64,000 bases of DNA from an uncultured Poribacteria bacterium (GTDB lineage Bacteria; Poribacteria; WGA-4E; WGA-3G), in NCBI GenBank assembly GCA_951828515.1, contig OX639992.1, positions 4,876,217 to 4,940,216 on the forward strand. The letters run 5' to 3'. How positions within the stretch are numbered: position 1 is the first letter of the stretch; each line of letters begins with the position of its first letter. A model generated the notes under the pieces. It made no database searches and was not told where the DNA came from. It was given only the letters and a program-made list of their open reading frames with translations. Positions 28,173-40,019 of the stretch are shown one piece after another. Both the position numbers and the translations under genes were made by a program.

Positions 28173-31100
28173 ATGCCCAAATTAAACCTCAAACCCAATC
28201 ACAAAGCGATCCGCGACTACTACGCCACGCTACAGGAATACGATAAACACGACATCACACACGAAGGCGCCGTCAGTTCACCCTTCGATACCCTCCTACA
28301 CGCCTGCGCAAAACAGATAAACGCCACACTCGTCCCCCAATACCCGATGCGCGCCCCAAAAGGCAACCGTATCGTCATCGACGGCGCAATCATCGACGAA
28401 TACGGACTCCCGCTCGCCTATTGGGAAGCAAAAGATATGGAGGACGACCTGTCAAGGTCCGTCATCGACAAACGCGAGACGGGCTATCCACTCGATAACA
28501 TCCTCTTCCAAACCCCACAACGCGCCATCCTCTACCAGAACGGCGCGGATGTGCTCGATCTCGACATCACCGAACCCGCCAACCTGATTGCCGCACTCCA
28601 ATACCTGTTCTCTTATACCGCACCCGCACTCGACAACTGGCAGACCGCTGTCACCGACTTCAGAGAACACGTCCCAGACCTCGCCACCAGACTCAAGGAA
28701 CTCATTGAGCAACGCCACGAAACCGATCCAGCCTTCAAAAAAGCGTTCACCGATTTCTACGAGACCTGCCGCACCTCCATCAACCCCGAACTCTCACAGG
28801 ACGCCGTTGAAGAGATGCTCATCCAACACATCCTCACCGAACGCATGTTCCGCACCGTTTTTAATAACTCCGCTTTCACCCGCCGAAACATCATCGCACG
28901 TGAAATTGAAAACGTCGTCGACGAACTCATCCGACAGGCGTTCAGTCGCGAGGAGTTTCTCAAACCGTTAGATCGGTTCTATGTCGCCATTGAAGAAGCC
29001 GCAATGCTCTGCAAAGACTTCTCTCAGAAACAACACTTCCTCAACACATTCTACGAGAAATTCTTTCAAGGGTTCTCCGAGGACGTAGCCGACACACACG
29101 GCATCGTCTACACACCGCAACCGATCGTCGATTTCATGGTGAACAGCGTTGAACACATCTTGAAGACCGAATTCGGGCGGTCGCTGTCGGATACCGGTGT
29201 ACACATCATCGATCCCTTCGTCGGGACAGGCAACTTCATCGTCCGACTCATGCAGGACATCCAAGGCACAGCATTAGAGTCGAAATACCGACACGAACTC
29301 CACTGCAACGAGGTGATGCTCCTACCCTACTACATCGCCAGCCTCAACATCGAGCAGGAATACTTCCAACGCACAGGGACGTATCTCCCGTTTGAAGGCA
29401 TCGCACTTGCGGATACGTTTGAGTTGATGGAGCAGGAACAAGGAGAACTCTTCACACAGGAAAACACAGAACGTGTGGAACGACAGAAGGCGGCGGACAT
29501 GTTCGTCGTCATAGGAAACCCACCCTACAACATGGGGCAAGTGAATGAAAACGATAATAACAAAAATCGGAAATATGAGTTAATGGACGAGCGGATTGCA
29601 GAGACGTATGTAAAAGGTTCTAAAGCAACGCTTAGAAATAAACTCTACGATCCGTATGTTAAGGCGATTCGATGGGCATCCGATCGGATTGGAGAGGAAG
29701 GGATTGTCGCATTTGTGACAAACAACGGATTTCTCAACGGTGTGGCGTTTGACGGGATGCGGAAACACCTCGCAGACGATTTCGACGCGATTTATATTGT
29801 AGATTTGGGTGGAAATGCCCGGAAGGGGTTGAAGGTCTCTGACGCTAATGTGTTTGGCATTCGGGTGGGTGTGAGCATCAATCTGTTTGTGAAAAATAAA
29901 GAGGATTCATCAGAGAAACCCCGAATCTTTTACCACCGAACTGATGAAATGTGGAACAAAAAACAGAAATTCGATTTTCTAAATGAGTGCCAACACACAG
30001 GCGGTATTGAGTGGCAAACACTTCAACCAGATACCCGACATACATGGCTGACTGAAGGACTCCATGCTGAGTTTGACACCTTTATATCAATTGGGAAAAA
30101 GGAAACGAAAAAGCCAATAGATATAGGAAAAACAATTTTCGGTCTCTACTCTTTAGGTGTTGTTACCAGCAGAGATAATTTGGTATACTCATTTGATCCT
30201 GCGCTGCTACAAGAACGAGTACACACATTTATTGAGATATACAACACGGCTGTTGACAGAAAGAAAAGACACGACCTTAAAACTCCTGTTGAGGACTTCA
30301 TTGACACAAATGATCCACGAATTAAGTGGAGTCGGCAGGTTAAGACATCACTGAGAAAATTAGAACTAAGTGCTTATGAAGATACTCACTTCCGCGCAGC
30401 CTTGTATCGTCCGTTCTGTCAGAAATATCTCTACTTTGATAACTTTTGGAATGAGGAACGTTATCAACAATACCGAATTTTTCCCACACCAGAAATTGAA
30501 ATGGAAAATTGGATGATTTGTCTGACAGATAAAGGATCTGAAAAACCCTTCATGATTCTTATGAGCAACCAAGTCACTGATTTTCACGTTGTGGGTCCAG
30601 GTTGTAGTACTCAATGCTTTCCCTTCTACACCTACGACGAAGACGGCACCAACCGACAGGAGAACATCACCGATTGGGCGTTAGCAGAATTCCGAACGCG
30701 TTACAACGACAACACCATCACCAAGTGGGACATCTTCCACTACAACTACGGTCTCCTGCACCATCCCACCTACCGCGAGAAATACAAGATGAACCTCAAG
30801 CGTGATCTCCCGCATATCCCCTTTGCCGAAGACTTCTGGGGATTCGCCAACGCCGGTGCAGCGTTAGCAGATCTCCACGTCAACTACGAATCCGCTCCCA
30901 AATACGACGGACTGGAATTCATTGAAACAGAAGGTATGAAGGTAGATTGGAACGTCGAGAAAATGAAACTCTCCAAAGACAAGACACAGTTGAAATACAA
31001 CGATTTCCTGACATTAGACGGCATCCCTACGGAAGTCTATGACTATCAGCTCGGCAACCGTTCCGCGTTGGAGTGGGTCGTAGATCAATATCGCGTCAAG

Positions 31101-31235
31101 GTAGACAAACGAAGCGGGATTGTGAACGACCCGAACCGTGAGTCGGAACAGCGGCATATCATGGATCTGATTGGTCGCGTCATCACCGTCAGCCTGAAGA
31201 CGGTGGAGATTGTTAACGGGTTACCTCCATTGTAA
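28173..31235 (+). CDS. Single-chain restriction-modification enzyme (type IIG / ISP-like, no helicase)
   Basis: The 1020-residue protein begins with a PD-(D/E)xK-like nuclease region: VIDGAIIDEYGLPLAYWEAKD (split: VIDGAIIDEYG, LPLAYWEAKD). An adenine N6-methyltransferase follows, with AdoMet motif DPFVGTGNFIVRL near residue 350 and catalytic NPPY near residue 450. The C-terminal part should hold the target recognition domain. Type ISP enzymes also carry a RecA-type helicase, which I do not see, so a type IIG-like enzyme is more likely. The 29.5-30.6 kb part is visibly more AT-rich than the ends of the gene, consistent with exchange of the recognition region. Confidence 0.8.
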   Translation: MPKLNLKPNHKAIRDYYATLQEYDKHDITHEGAVSSPFDTLLHACAKQINATLVPQYPMRAPKGNRIVIDGAIIDEYGLPLAYWEAKDMEDDLSRSVIDKRETGYPLDNILFQTPQRAILYQNGADVLDLDITEPANLIAALQYLFSYTAPALDNWQTAVTDFREHVPDLATRLKELIEQRHETDPAFKKAFTDFYETCRTSINPELSQDAVEEMLIQHILTERMFRTVFNNSAFTRRNIIAREIENVVDELIRQAFSREEFLKPLDRFYVAIEEAAMLCKDFSQKQHFLNTFYEKFFQGFSEDVADTHGIVYTPQPIVDFMVNSVEHILKTEFGRSLSDTGVHIIDPFVGTGNFIVRLMQDIQGTALESKYRHELHCNEVMLLPYYIASLNIEQEYFQRTGTYLPFEGIALADTFELMEQEQGELFTQENTERVERQKAADMFVVIGNPPYNMGQVNENDNNKNRKYELMDERIAETYVKGSKATLRNKLYDPYVKAIRWASDRIGEEGIVAFVTNNGFLNGVAFDGMRKHLADDFDAIYIVDLGGNARKGLKVSDANVFGIRVGVSINLFVKNKEDSSEKPRIFYHRTDEMWNKKQKFDFLNECQHTGGIEWQTLQPDTRHTWLTEGLHAEFDTFISIGKKETKKPIDIGKTIFGLYSLGVVTSRDNLVYSFDPALLQERVHTFIEIYNTAVDRKKRHDLKTPVEDFIDTNDPRIKWSRQVKTSLRKLELSAYEDTHFRAALYRPFCQKYLYFDNFWNEERYQQYRIFPTPEIEMENWMICLTDKGSEKPFMILMSNQVTDFHVVGPGCSTQCFPFYTYDEDGTNRQENITDWALAEFRTRYNDNTITKWDIFHYNYGLLHHPTYREKYKMNLKRDLPHIPFAEDFWGFANAGAALADLHVNYESAPKYDGLEFIETEGMKVDWNVEKMKLSKDKTQLKYNDFLTLDGIPTEVYDYQLGNRSALEWVVDQYRVKVDKRSGIVNDPNRESEQRHIMDLIGRVITVSLKTVEIVNGLPPL

Positions 31236-33904: not shown

Positions 33905-34933
33905 ATGTTTGTTCCTGTCGTTGATAAAGCACAAAAGCCACTCATGCCTACCAAGCCTTCGCGGGCAAGGAAGTGGATTAGAGACAAGAAGGCAACACCG
34001 TTTTGGAAAAATGGGATATTCTGCGTGCGTTTAAATGTAGAGCCATCGGATAGATACTTCCAAGAGATTGCTGTGGGGGTAGACCCTGGTAGTAAGAAGG
34101 AAGGCTTTACCGTGAAAAGTGAGTCGCATACCTACTTGAATGTGCAAGCAGACGCGCATAACAAGGTGGGTAAGAAGGTTGAAAAGCGTCGTGAGTTGCG
34201 GAGGGGTCGTCGGTCACGTAAGTGTCCGAACCGCAAGAACCGCACCAATAGACTTGCGAACAAAGCACGCATCCCTGCTGGCACGCGTGCGAGGTGGGAC
34301 TGGAAACTGCGTATATTAGACTGGTTTTCCAAACTCTATCCAATCACACACGTTTGTGTTGAAGATATAAAAGCCCGGAGTATAGAACGTGCAAAGAAGT
34401 GGAATCAGTCGTTTAGTCCTTTGGAAGTTGGTAAGCAGTGGTTCTACACAGAAGTTGAGAAACGGTGGAAGTTGCGAACACTTCAAGGATGGGAAACAAA
34501 AGAGATACGCGATAGACTTGGACTCAAAAAATCGTCAAAGAAACTATCAGAAACCTTTGAGGCACATTGCGTAGATAGCTGGTGTCTCGCGTATCATACC
34601 GTAGGCGGTTCTGATATACCCGAGCATCGGGATATATTCTGTATATCGCCAATCCCGATCCAGCGAAGGGCGTTACACAGAGAGCAACCGAAAAAGGGCG
34701 GGATTCGTTCAAGGTATGGCGGAACAGCATTGGGAAACGGTCTCGTTAAGAACGTCCTTGTCAAGCATGTTATGTATGGTTTCTCACGTCTGTCGGGCAT
34801 CAACGCAAAAGGTTTATTTGCTATCTATAGTCTTGATGGGAAACGCTTAACAACAAGTGCGAAGCAAAACAGTTTCAAAGTCCTCACACGGCTTAACTTT
34901 ACCTATAGGAGCGGGCATTCCTCCCCAACCTAA
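33905..34933 (+). CDS. isrB: IsrB-type RNA-guided nickase (PLMP plus RuvC, no HNH)
   Basis: The 342-residue protein opens with the PLMP domain (KPLMPTKPSRARKWIRD, residues 11-27). RuvC-I is GVDPGSK with Asp60, an arginine-rich bridge helix spans about 88-130, RuvC-II has Glu153 in VCVEDIK and RuvC-III has His221 and Asp224 in EAHCVDSW. Only about 65 residues separate RuvC-II and RuvC-III, so the HNH domain of IscB is absent; this is the IsrB class, ancestor-like relatives of Cas9 that nick DNA with an omega-RNA. All catalytic positions look intact. The length matches the roughly 350 residues usual for IsrB. Confidence 0.85.
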   Translation: MFVPVVDKAQKPLMPTKPSRARKWIRDKKATPFWKNGIFCVRLNVEPSDRYFQEIAVGVDPGSKKEGFTVKSESHTYLNVQADAHNKVGKKVEKRRELRRGRRSRKCPNRKNRTNRLANKARIPAGTRARWDWKLRILDWFSKLYPITHVCVEDIKARSIERAKKWNQSFSPLEVGKQWFYTEVEKRWKLRTLQGWETKEIRDRLGLKKSSKKLSETFEAHCVDSWCLAYHTVGGSDIPEHRDIFCISPIPIQRRALHREQPKKGGIRSRYGGTALGNGLVKNVLVKHVMYGFSRLSGINAKGLFAIYSLDGKRLTTSAKQNSFKVLTRLNFTYRSGHSSPT

Positions 34934-35720: not shown

Positions 35721-35749
35721 TTGACATGCACCGCACTTTCTGATACAGT
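35721..35749 (+). promoter_or_regulatory. Promoter of the candidate selenoprotein, leaderless
   Basis: TTGACA (35721-35726), 17-base spacer, TACAGT (35744-35749). The ATG at 35756 is seven bases downstream, at the expected transcription start, and no ribosome site is present. Confidence 0.65.
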
Positions 35750-35755
35750 ATACCC

Positions 35756-36253
35756 ATGCCACGGAAAAACAAAGTTCTCAACATCGGTGATACCGCGCCA
35801 CCATTCACGCTCCCATCACATCAACGCGGAGAAGTATCGCTCGAAACGTATCACGGGACACACCACGTCGTCCTAACCTTTTTTCGGGGGACGTGGTGAC
35901 CGAACAGCCGTCGTCAGTTGGCGGCTGTGCAAGAAAACGTCGCAGGCTACGCCGCATACGTAGCCACCCCGCTCGCCATTGCCGGGCAGTGGCCCCGTGA
36001 ACTTCGAGGCTATGCCGAGAAAAACGGTATCACATTCCCGCTACTGGTAGATAAAACAAGAGACATCATCAGAAGCTACGGTGTCTACCACTGGCTCAGC
36101 TTAGAGGCTTACAACATCGCGCGTCCGGCAACATTCATCATTGACAAGACAGGGATTATTAAATATATGTACATCGGTTCGCATCAATTCGACCTCGCAA
36201 AGCAGTCAGAAATCCTCGAATCCCTGAAAGAGATCGCCGCGCCGCAAAAATGA
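35756..36253 (+). CDS. Peroxiredoxin-like (AhpC/TSA) candidate selenoprotein, UGA = Sec48
   Basis: Read through one in-frame TGA (35897-35899), the gene encodes 165 residues of an AhpC/TSA-type thioredoxin fold: IGDTAPPFTLPSHQRGEVSL, then VVLTFFRGTW-U-PNSRRQLAAV, then FPLLVDKTRDIIRSYGVY and ARPATFIIDKTGIIKYMYIG. Homologues have Cys at the TGA position (FFRGTWCPxCR), so the stop replaces exactly the peroxidatic residue; the usual second Cys is Ser51. Both sides of the TGA are intact, with no frameshift, and a hairpin follows at once. Sec48 would reduce peroxides or disulfides. The alternative is a single nonsense mutation in a Cys-type gene. Confidence 0.75.
35904..35928 (+). promoter_or_regulatory. 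SECIS-like hairpin following the in-frame UGA
   Basis: ACAGCCG (35904-35910) pairs perfectly with CGGCTGT (35922-35928); a U-G and a C-G pair can extend the stem, leaving the apical loop GTCAGTT with G at its first position, as bacterial SECIS loops require. The loop begins 13 bases after the UGA, slightly nearer than the usual 16-37. Confidence 0.6.
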
Positions 36254-36321: not shown

Positions 36322-37422
36322 ATGGACGAAACACACATAGCCTTTATGCAACGCGCACTGGATTTAGCACGGCAGGCAAAAGGACGCACGAGTCCCAACC
36401 CGCTCGTCGGTGCCGTCATTGTAAAAGACGGAAAGGTTATCGGTGAAGGGTATCACCAGAAAGCGGGATCCCCACACGCCGAAGTCCATGCGTTGAACGC
36501 CGCCGGTGAGGACGCCAAAGGCGCAACGCTTTACACAACACTTGAGCCGTGTTGCCATTGGGGACGGACACCCCCCTGCACAGAGGCACTCATCCGCGCA
36601 GGTATCGCGCACGTCTACGTCGCAGACGGCGATCCGAATCCGAAGGTCGCTGGTAAGGGGGTTCAGCAACTCCAAGATGCCGGCATAAACGTCCATGTAG
36701 GTGTCCACAGACAAAAAGCGTCAGACCTAAACGAGGTGCATCGGAAATATATTCAGACCGGTAGACCGTTTGTAATCCTCAAAACCGCTATGAGCCTCGA
36801 CGGGAAAATCGCCACCGCTTCTGGGGAATCGCAATGGATTACGTCCGAAGCATCAAGGCAGCGGGGACACGAAATTCGGGATACCGTAGATGCGATCCTC
36901 GTCGGTAGAGGGACAGTCGCAAGCGATAATCCTACACTAACGACACGGCTTCAGGACAGAGAAGGACAAGACGCAACCCGAATTGTGTTAGATTCGCACG
37001 GGAGAACGCACACGGATGCACGCATCTTCAACGCCGAAAGCGAGGCGGGTGTTATCGTGGCAGTAACGCCAACGGCACCCTCTGAAAATATTGATGCTCT
37101 CGAAAAGGCGGGCGCGGAAGTGATAACCGTTCCAGACGCACACAGTAAGGTCTGTTTCAAGCATTTGATGGAAATATTGGGGAAACGTGAAATAACAAGC
37201 GTCCTCATAGAAGGTGGCAGCGAAATCAATGCCTCAGCACTCGCCGCAGAGGTCGTGGACAAAGTTATGTGCTTCATCGCACCGAAACTCATCGGCGGAC
37301 AGAACGCACCTGGACCGATCGGGGGTGTAGGAATCCGAAGTTTAACCGAGGCAGTGAACCTACAGCGAGTAAGCATCACACCGATTGCTGAGCACGACTT
37401 TCTAATTGAAGGGTATCTATAG
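36322..37422 (+). CDS. ribD: Bifunctional riboflavin deaminase-reductase
   Basis: The N-terminal cytidine-deaminase-like domain shows HAEVHAL (His52) and PCCHWGRTPPC (Cys77, Cys86), the zinc ligands and catalytic Glu54 of the pyrimidine deaminase. The C-terminal reductase domain begins at about residue 150 (RPFVILKTAMSLDGKIAT) and includes LIEGGSEINASAL. Together they convert the GTP cyclohydrolase II product to the ribitylamino-uracil precursor. 366 residues is the normal size. It is followed after one base by ribE. Confidence 0.95.
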   Translation: MDETHIAFMQRALDLARQAKGRTSPNPLVGAVIVKDGKVIGEGYHQKAGSPHAEVHALNAAGEDAKGATLYTTLEPCCHWGRTPPCTEALIRAGIAHVYVADGDPNPKVAGKGVQQLQDAGINVHVGVHRQKASDLNEVHRKYIQTGRPFVILKTAMSLDGKIATASGESQWITSEASRQRGHEIRDTVDAILVGRGTVASDNPTLTTRLQDREGQDATRIVLDSHGRTHTDARIFNAESEAGVIVAVTPTAPSENIDALEKAGAEVITVPDAHSKVCFKHLMEILGKREITSVLIEGGSEINASALAAEVVDKVMCFIAPKLIGGQNAPGPIGGVGIRSLTEAVNLQRVSITPIAEHDFLIEGYL

Positions 37423-37423
37423 C

Positions 37424-38095
37424 ATGTTCACCGGGATCGTCGAAGAACTCGGAACGATTAGAAGTATTCAGGTTAAATCGCAAGATGCGACGCTTGAGAT
37501 TCAGGCGACCGATGTTCTCAGTGATGCGAAAGTCGGTGACAGCATCGCCATTGACGGTGCCTGTCTGACGATCCGTTTCCTTACATCGGAAACATTCACC
37601 GTGGATGCATCCGCTGAGACCTTGCGCCGCACAACCTTGGGTGAACGGAAGGTAGGAGAGCACGTCAATTTAGAGCGTTCACTCCGGCTCAGCGATAGAT
37701 TAGGCGGACACCTCGTACTCGGACACGTTGATGAGGTCGCGACAATCCGCTCGTGGAAAGATGAGGGTGACGCCTCTGTGATGCAGATAACAATGAGTCG
37801 CACCGCCAGACCGTATGTCGCATACAAAGGATCCATCACAGTTGACGGTGTCAGTTTAACTGTATCAAATGTACACGCGGATGCCTTTGAAGTCACGCTG
37901 ATTCCACACACAAAAGACGTTACGACCTTCGGAACGAAACGGACAGGTGATACGGTTAACCTCGAAGTCGACATCGTCGCGCGTTATCTCGAAACGCTGT
38001 TAAAAAATACCGAAGAGGAGACGGAGTTGCATAAACAATCCTCTTCTGAAACCCTTAATTTAAGCTTTTTAGCGAAACACGGTTATATCGATTAA
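37424..38095 (+). CDS. ribE: Riboflavin synthase, alpha chain
   Basis: The start is the ATG at 37424, one base after the ribD stop, giving the canonical MFTGIVEELGTI. The two internally repeated lumazine-binding domains are visible: GACLTIRFL near residue 47 and SITVDGVSLTV near 144. The trimeric enzyme dismutates two lumazine molecules into riboflavin. The 223-residue length is typical; the last 25 residues extend slightly past the core. Confidence 0.95.
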   Translation: MFTGIVEELGTIRSIQVKSQDATLEIQATDVLSDAKVGDSIAIDGACLTIRFLTSETFTVDASAETLRRTTLGERKVGEHVNLERSLRLSDRLGGHLVLGHVDEVATIRSWKDEGDASVMQITMSRTARPYVAYKGSITVDGVSLTVSNVHADAFEVTLIPHTKDVTTFGTKRTGDTVNLEVDIVARYLETLLKNTEEETELHKQSSSETLNLSFLAKHGYID

Positions 38096-38254
38096 ATGGT
38101 TTTCAGCACGGGTTGCTGCACAATCCTTTCAGTTTTCAGTCATTGTTAAGAGGTTTTCGTTTAACAAAGGTTTCCTCTTGTTACCGATAACTGAAGACCG
38201 ATAACCATTAAATCACATAAGGCGTCATTTAACGCTTGGCGTATCATTAAAAAA
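38096..38254. repeat. Imperfect palindromic repeat between ribE and ribBA
   Basis: Contains the family core TTAAGAGGTTTTCGTTTAACA and AACTGAAGACCGATAACC-type units, which fold back on each other. No FMN riboswitch motif was found. Confidence 0.55.
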
Positions 38255-39487
38255 ATGTCAGACACATTTAATACCATTCCTGAAGCACTCTCTGCAATCC
38301 GAGACGGTGAAATGATCATCGTCATTGATGACCCCGATCGCGAAAACGAAGGCGATCTCATCATGGCGGCAGAAAAAGTGACAGCAGAGCGGATCAATTT
38401 CATGGCGAAATTCGGCAGAGGGTTGATATGCCTACCGACCTGTTCAGAACGCCTTGCCGAACTTGAACTCCACCCTATGGTAGCATCCAACACGGCGCAA
38501 ATGCAGACCGCCTTCACTGTCACCATCGATGCGAAAGAGGTGACGACCGGTATCTCCGCACAAGAACGCGCCTATACCATCCTAAAATTCGTTGAGTCCA
38601 ACGCTGAACCCGCAGATTTCGTCCGTCCCGGACACATCTTCCCCTTAGAAGCGAAACCGGGAGGCGTCCTCCGGCGCGCAGGACATACCGAAGCCACTGT
38701 CGATTTAGCGCGAATGGCAGGGCTATACCCAGCGGGTGTCCTCTGTGAGATACTCAACGAAGACGGCAGCATGGCACGCGTCCCTGAACTCATGGAATTC
38801 GCCGCACAACACCAGCTCATAATCATCACGATCGCTGACCTCATCGCATACCGGCGTGAAACAGAAACACTGATCCGACGCGTCGCAACCGCTGATATAC
38901 CAACCGCACACGGTGAGTTCAAACTCTACGCCTATGAAAGCACCGATACAGGTGGCGAAACCGTCGAGGCGGATAAAACACATATCGCACTCACGAAAGG
39001 CGATCTTACCGATCCGGCACCACTCTTAGTCCGAGTCCATTCGCAATGTCTCACCGGTGATGTCTTCGGTTCCCTCAGATGCGATTGCGGTGAACAACTC
39101 GAAATCGCACTGAAAACCATCGAGCAGGAAGGCAGAGGTGTCCTTGTCTACATGCGACAAGAAGGCAGAGGGATGGGACTCAAAGAGAAACTCAGGGCAT
39201 ATCAGTTGCAGGACAACGATGGGTTAGACACCGTCGAAGCGAATGAACATCTTGGGTTCCCCGCAGATTTGCGAGATTACGGCATCGGGGCACAGATATT
39301 AGCCGATTTAGGCGTTCAGAAAATGCGATTGATGACAAACAATCCGCAGAAAGTTACAGGATTGTCAGGACACGGACTTGAAATCGTCGAGCGCATCCCG
39401 TTGCAAACCAAGCCGAATGCATTTAACCGCCGATATTTAGAAACAAAACGTTCCAAACTCGGCCACCTCCTCCTACATGAGGAATAA
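38255..39487 (+). CDS. ribBA: Bifunctional DHBP synthase / GTP cyclohydrolase II
   Basis: Residues 1-200 are 3,4-dihydroxy-2-butanone-4-phosphate synthase ([19 protein letters not shown], then [20 protein letters not shown]... shown as RPGHIFPL and [14 protein letters not shown]). Residues about 215-410 are GTP cyclohydrolase II with the zinc site [20 protein letters not shown] and [13 protein letters not shown]. It provides both substrates of the lumazine branch. No Shine-Dalgarno site is present; the ATG follows an A-rich tract. Confidence 0.95.
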
Positions 39488-39494
39488 TACAGAA

Positions 39495-39533
39495 TGGAGA
39501 ATGTAGGGGCAGCCCTTGTGGCTGCCCTCCGAT
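39495..39533. repeat. GGGGCAGCC hairpin repeat before ribH
   Basis: GTAGGGGCAGCCCTTGTGGC continuing TGCCCT forms a hairpin (GGGCAGCC with GGCTGCCC) ending 7 bases before the ribH start. It could attenuate or stabilise the message. Confidence 0.55.
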
Positions 39534-39539
39534 AAAAAT

Positions 39540-40019
39540 ATGCCAAACGTCTATGAAGGACATTTCCTCGGCGAAGGTCTCACGTTCGGTATTATCGTCA
39601 GTCGATTCAATAGTTTCGTTACCGAAAAACTCCTCGCTGGCGCCCTCGATGCTCTCAAGCGACACGGCGTCGATTTGGACGATGTCGATGTTTTCTGGAC
39701 CCCCGGTGCCTTTGAAATCCCCGGAATCGCTAAACGCCTCGCAGAGAGCAAACGTTATGACGCTCTCCTCTGCCTCGGGGCAGTTATCCGAGGAGCGACC
39801 CCCCATTTTGATTATGTCGCCGCCGAAAGCGCGAAAGGAATCGCCAACGTCTCATTCAACACCAACATTCCCGTTATCTACGGGGTCATCACCACAGATA
39901 CAATAGAACAAGCACTTGAACGTGCCGGCATCAAGGCAGGGAACAAAGGTTCTGAAGCCGCTATCGCTGGAATCGAGACAGCCAACCTTTATAAAACCGT
40001 CGAAAAAGTGACTACATGA
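39540..40019 (+). CDS. ribH: 6,7-dimethyl-8-ribityllumazine synthase
   Basis: I start at the ATG at 39540, giving [20 protein letters not shown] and a 159-residue protein of normal size. [30 protein letters not shown] (with the catalytic-region His) and [20 protein letters not shown] are family signatures. The enzyme joins the ribitylamino-uracil and the butanone phosphate; it usually forms a 60-subunit shell or a pentamer. It is the last riboflavin gene of the cluster. Confidence 0.95.

Follow-up and report, generated by a model that had tools for sequence, protein, structure and literature searches.

The question raised by this locus is whether an in-frame TGA in a gene of the AhpC/TSA type encodes selenocysteine (Sec) and, if so, what kind of protein results. 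The gene lies within a stretch of 64,000 nucleotides that was analysed as a whole (the window), in a genome that consists of a single 5.85-Mb contig and belongs to Candidatus Poribacteria, which are marine sponge symbionts. The first-pass annotation had described an ATG at 35756, a TGA at codon 48 and intact halves on both sides, and all of this can be read directly from the sequence: the frame is open before and after codon 48 (FFRGTW-U-PNSRRQ), and it ends with a terminal TGA at 36251-36253. The assignment to the AhpC/TSA fold proved correct as well. The 165-aa protein matches the AhpC-TSA Pfam family with 95.6 bits (E 2.7e-27, cut-off 26), its predicted structure (pLDDT 86.9) has a peroxiredoxin-type fold, and the best PDB matches in Foldseek are Bcp4 (E 3.6e-16) and the 1-Cys peroxiredoxin AhpE (TM 0.85), which places the protein in the PF00578 superfamily. 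Without recoding, the longest ordinary open reading frame begins only at 35918, 3' of the UGA, and standard gene calling would therefore truncate or split the protein. For this reason, the annotation of redox genes may be faulty throughout this phylum of sponge symbionts. The features of the locus are compiled in Table 1.

Table 1. Features of the Poribacterial locus, numbered by position in the window
Feature	Position	Strand	Basis
Putative selenoprotein gene, 165-aa AhpC/TSA-fold UxxS peroxiredoxin-like oxidoreductase	35756..36253	+	reading frame, Pfam, orthologues, structure model
In-frame TGA, read as Sec48	35897..35899	+	TGA kept in orthologues, Cys in homologues
Codon 51 (Ser), opposite the peroxidatic Cys/Sec of true peroxiredoxins	35906..35908	+	alignments
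bSECIS-like hairpin	35904..35928	+	folding, conservation, synonymous constraint, published rules
Conserved hairpin core: 6-bp stem with loop AGTT	stem 35910-35915/35920-35925, loop 35916-35919	+	best kept in relatives
Promoter TTGACA-17-TACAGT with its 3' end 6 nt upstream of the ATG, predicting a leaderless mRNA	35721..35749	+	conserved in relatives
ribD, conserved downstream neighbour, followed by riboflavin genes	36322..37422	+	position in loci

Conservation of the TGA and the selenocysteine machinery

In a set of 60 genomes, own genome included, orthologues of at least 56% identity were found in 45 (the own genome, 34 others of its genus and 10 of its order), and when these were read base by base, all 45 had kept the TGA, with one such codon per protein interior. 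A named collection, whose loci come in part from the same genomes as this set (many are shared), contained 57 orthologues from Candidatus Poribacteria, 56 with TGA and one with TGT, a Cys codon. Removal of duplicates left 66 distinct orthologue sequences from several families, 65 of them with TGA. All close orthologues from named genomes belong to Candidatus Poribacteria, and Ser51 is present in every orthologue extracted. The occurrence of TGT at the same codon in a close relative is what one would expect if the TGA were a nonsense mutation or a sequencing error in a Cys gene, but the protein sequence is conserved on both sides of the TGA, and the downstream frames are intact in orthologues of several families. 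We regard this explanation as refuted by the conservation of the TGA across independent assemblies, and its probability as practically nil.

The single TGT orthologue (L117) is 81% identical, is nested among the Sec forms (support 95/89), has the motif FFRGTW-C-PNSRRQ with Ser51 kept, and comes from a genome that retains tRNA-Sec. Taken together, these sequence data make it look like a natural Sec-to-Cys swap, and the clade thus offers a natural pair of Sec and Cys forms with the same flanking residues. Furthermore, homologues of about 40% identity in Brevibacillus and Armatimonadota possess a CxxC motif with Cys at the Sec position. The alternation of Cys and Sec at position 48, for which a comparison of homologues had been recommended, was thus found, and a UGA that is conserved among orthologues and stands opposite Cys in homologues is the exchange expected of a bacterial selenoprotein.

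The first-pass annotation had held that the absence of selB and tRNA-Sec would argue for a plain nonsense mutation or error, but both are present, and the search for all four decoding components succeeded in this same single-contig genome: selA (594 bits), selB (347 bits), tRNA-Sec (78 bits, anticodon TCA, lying some 160 nt downstream of selB), and selD (359 bits), which carries a TGA of its own. selB scored above the curated cut-off in 53 of the 60 genomes, that is, in the own genome and relatives. SelA and SelB have been described to co-occur in most sponge-symbiont bins and rarely in their relatives (PMC5649159), and the Poribacterial gene now represents a concrete client for SelA/SelB of sponge symbionts. 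A genome-wide reassignment of TGA to an ordinary sense codon, for example for Trp or Gly, would account for the several genes with internal TGA in this genome. However, TGA also terminates the Sec48 gene itself, orthologues end with TGA, TAA or TAG, most AhpC/TSA matches, and the other genes that were read, lack an internal TGA, the internal TGAs examined lie in redox motifs where homologues have Cys, and the Sec system is complete. We therefore rejected reassignment as highly improbable.

In agreement with the original proposal of a selenoenzyme, the conservation of the TGA, the exchange of Sec and Cys, and the presence of all four sel genes argue at the sequence level for a genuine selenoprotein. 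We infer, with a probability of roughly 0.93, that the gene encodes a UxxS peroxiredoxin-like selenoprotein, and that UGA codon 48 would be recoded by SelB and Sec-tRNA(UCA), guided by a hairpin that begins 4 nt downstream of the UGA.

The hairpin downstream of the UGA

The description of the hairpin as a perfect 7-bp stem with a loop that starts with G was right with regard to the stem, which pairs 35904-35910 with 35922-35928. It was wrong with regard to the loop, as the loop of this stem begins with T-C-G, and in the register that is best kept in relatives, with the loop AGUU, the G is second. The region 35890-35945 folds with -24 kcal/mol (z = -2.6), and only 1 of 200 shuffles was equally good. 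The 36 nt after the UGA have a minimum free energy (MFE) of -16.8 kcal/mol, a value that is reached by 0.46% of synonymous recodings of the same peptide. AGUU is found 16 nt after codon 48 in all distinct orthologues, and the loop codons are unchanged in them: codon 54 is CAG in 66/66 and codon 55 is TTR in 66/66, whereas the other Gln codons are divided into 225 CAG and 228 CAA, and about 26% of the other Leu codons are TTR, all counts ignoring shared ancestry. In line with this, 5.2 of 6 pairs of the fixed-register stem form in the real sequences, compared with 3.6 +/- 0.2 with random synonymous codons, and the synonymous sites of codons 51-55 are among the most constrained of the gene.

Published rules for bSECIS elements demand a loop of 3-9 nt, a stem of 4-16 bp, a G within the first two loop bases, a spacing of 16-37 nt, and an MFE of at most -7.5 (PMC13188914). 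The hairpin in the window falls within these limits, with its loop AGUU, 6 bp, 16 nt, and -16.8 kcal/mol. The loop had been thought to be slightly too near to the UGA, but at 16 nt it lies inside the usual range. Neither the window nor the hairpin had a match in Rfam, which may lack a general bacterial SECIS model.

As to the exact pairing, the 6-bp AGUU register is likely, not proven, since a stem shifted by 3 nt is still 73-76% paired and the covariation is modest, with few double-sided pair changes (6 cells at one pair). The fold of lowest free energy is itself in a shifted register, and in several orthologues folding is weaker than the -7.5 threshold. Covariation does not single out one register because the CGN-CGN codons allow slips by 3 nt.

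A peroxiredoxin-like rather than a canonical peroxiredoxin active site

The TGA had been placed exactly at the peroxidatic position, and this part of the initial interpretation had to be abandoned. In alignments with AhpE, 1-Cys and PrxQ/Bcp-type peroxiredoxins, Sec48 falls three residues upstream, on the Thr of the TxxC/TxxU motif, Ser51 is aligned with the peroxidatic Cys, and Pro124 takes the place of the catalytic Arg. The peroxidatic Cys and the catalytic Arg of AhpE served as landmarks. The Sec of the genome's own TxxU Sec-peroxiredoxin (motif TGGU, C1:2238444 on the genome contig) likewise falls on Ser51, as does that of the adjacent GRGU protein (C1:2238894), which puts Sec48 where the first Cys of a CxxC-type motif would stand; the suggestion that Ser51 replaces the second Cys was thus borne out by the alignments. 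With respect to the canonical PxxxTxx(C/U) signature, Ser51 occupies the C/U position and Sec the Thr position, and the active-site Arg before the FIID strand is replaced by Pro124. In comparison with the UxxC/UxxU subfamily, the residue at +3 from Sec is Ser51, and not Cys or Sec. On the basis of these alignments, the protein is therefore best described as a UxxS peroxiredoxin-like oxidoreductase. TxxU versus UxxC likewise separates peroxiredoxins from peroxiredoxin-like selenoproteins (PMC1088965). The AhpC-TSA Pfam match and the peroxiredoxin fold could also point to a canonical enzyme whose Sec occupies the peroxidatic site, but the three alignment positions speak against it, the scores fall well short of the curated cut-offs for PrxU, AhpC and PrxQ, and the true TxxU peroxiredoxin of this genome is encoded elsewhere (C1:2238444). 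We consider a canonical enzyme unlikely.

Compared with known systems, the UxxS protein resembles the UxxC/UxxU thiol:disulfide oxidoreductases of PF00578, which share the Pfam domain, the Sec that opens the motif, and the combination of a peroxiredoxin fold with a thioredoxin-like motif (PMC13188914, PMC1088965), whereas the Poribacterial protein has Ser as the second motif residue and no other Cys in this species. PrxU (TxxU) shares the AhpC/TSA fold and a Sec active site, but its Sec is located three residues further on and is accompanied by the catalytic Arg; in the Poribacterial protein, the Thr, Sec and Arg of PrxU are replaced by Sec, Ser and Pro, respectively. M. tuberculosis AhpE, among the best structural matches, also depends on a single redox residue, a Cys at the TxxC position combined with Arg, where the Poribacterial protein has its Sec at the Thr position. 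The glutathione peroxidase-like UxxT proteins resemble it in having Sec first in the motif, a hydroxyl residue at +3, and no resolving Cys in the motif, but they belong to a different family, PF00255, to which the Poribacterial protein has no match. A UxxS protein of the Olavius algarvensis delta-1 symbiont, also of the AhpC/TSA superfamily and also from a marine-invertebrate symbiont, is listed under pfam13911 (PMC9312934) or cd02970 (PMC13188914). By this listing it would belong to a different Pfam family, and PF13911 does not match the Poribacterial protein at E 0.001. The UxxS selenoproteins listed for AhpC/TSA are CAB1081847.1 / MDX2448127.1. In published tables, the PF00578 selenoproteins are TxxU, UxxC, UxxU and UGC (PMC13188914, PMC9312934), and UxxS appears only for an AhpC-TSA_2/cd02970 protein that was originally described from the Olavius symbiont; proteins that share a domain but differ in their Sec motif are regarded as separate subfamilies (PMC9312934). 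Poribacterial selenoproteins are mentioned in none of the papers searched. The gene thus appears to encode a conserved selenoprotein of a broadly known kind, with a UxxS motif in PF00578 that is absent from these tables.

As the protein of this species contains no Cys, only Sec48 can serve as a chalcogen redox centre. In the predicted model, Sec48 lies just before the N-terminus of helix 49-60, as expected for an activated selenolate. This selenolate could reduce a hydroperoxide or a disulfide, which makes peroxidase and disulfide-reductase activity the candidate roles. Without another Cys, an external thiol must resolve the oxidised Sec, presumably in a 1-Cys or glutathione peroxidase-like cycle. 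An active site whose sole redox residue is Sec lends itself to examining what Sec contributes when no resolving Cys is present. Tentatively, and at somewhat less than even odds, we propose a PF00578 subfamily that is absent from published tables (U-P-N-S, Cys-free here), fixed across several families of the Poribacteria and linked to riboflavin genes. It would act as a glutathione peroxidase-like single-Sec peroxidase or reductase, be recycled by an external reductant that may depend on flavin, and form part of a large Poribacterial selenoproteome that has so far gone unreported.

Genomic surroundings and further TGA-containing genes

Seven AhpC/TSA matches with TGA, the Sec48 gene included, were found in this genome and, together with selD and the DUF3179 and CMD genes described below, they point to a sizeable selenoproteome. 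Two adjacent genes at C1:2238444-2239262 (L002, L004), with the motifs FTGGU (TxxU) and FGRGU (GxxU), are tandem Sec-peroxiredoxin candidates. The four others (C1:1764278, 614342, 2064408 and 2266215; L003, L005, L008 and L030) have the TGA in the contexts WUPFC, TUGDC, GURTC and WUGC. One TGA each was seen in a DUF3179 gene (C1:1555264-1556175, TTWUPLC) and in a CMD-domain gene (C1:5446728-5446919, CHYU). A scan of the window for TGA read-through frames gave 44 longer candidates, none of which, by eye, had a comparably clear redox context.

The gene had appeared to be leaderless, and a conserved promoter bears this out: in 52 of the 66 orthologues, the -10 box of a TTGACA-17-TACAGT/TATAAT-type promoter lies 6 nt upstream of the ATG, so that the selenoprotein mRNA, judged from this spacing, is probably leaderless. 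The promoter score was reached by 0.08% of pooled shuffles. ribD follows downstream in 45 of the 57 Poribacteria loci, and some of the remaining loci end at a contig end. This conserved position directly upstream of ribD suggests a link of the selenoprotein gene to flavin metabolism. In the window, ribD is followed by what appear by eye to be ribE, ribBA and ribH (36322-40019, +). On the other side of the gene, a 342-aa RRXRR-domain protein is encoded at 33905-34933 (+; PF14239, 116 bits), a domain associated with IscB-type transposon proteins, and further upstream, at 28173-31235 (+), a 1020-aa Type ISP restriction-modification enzyme with methylase, coupler and specificity domains.
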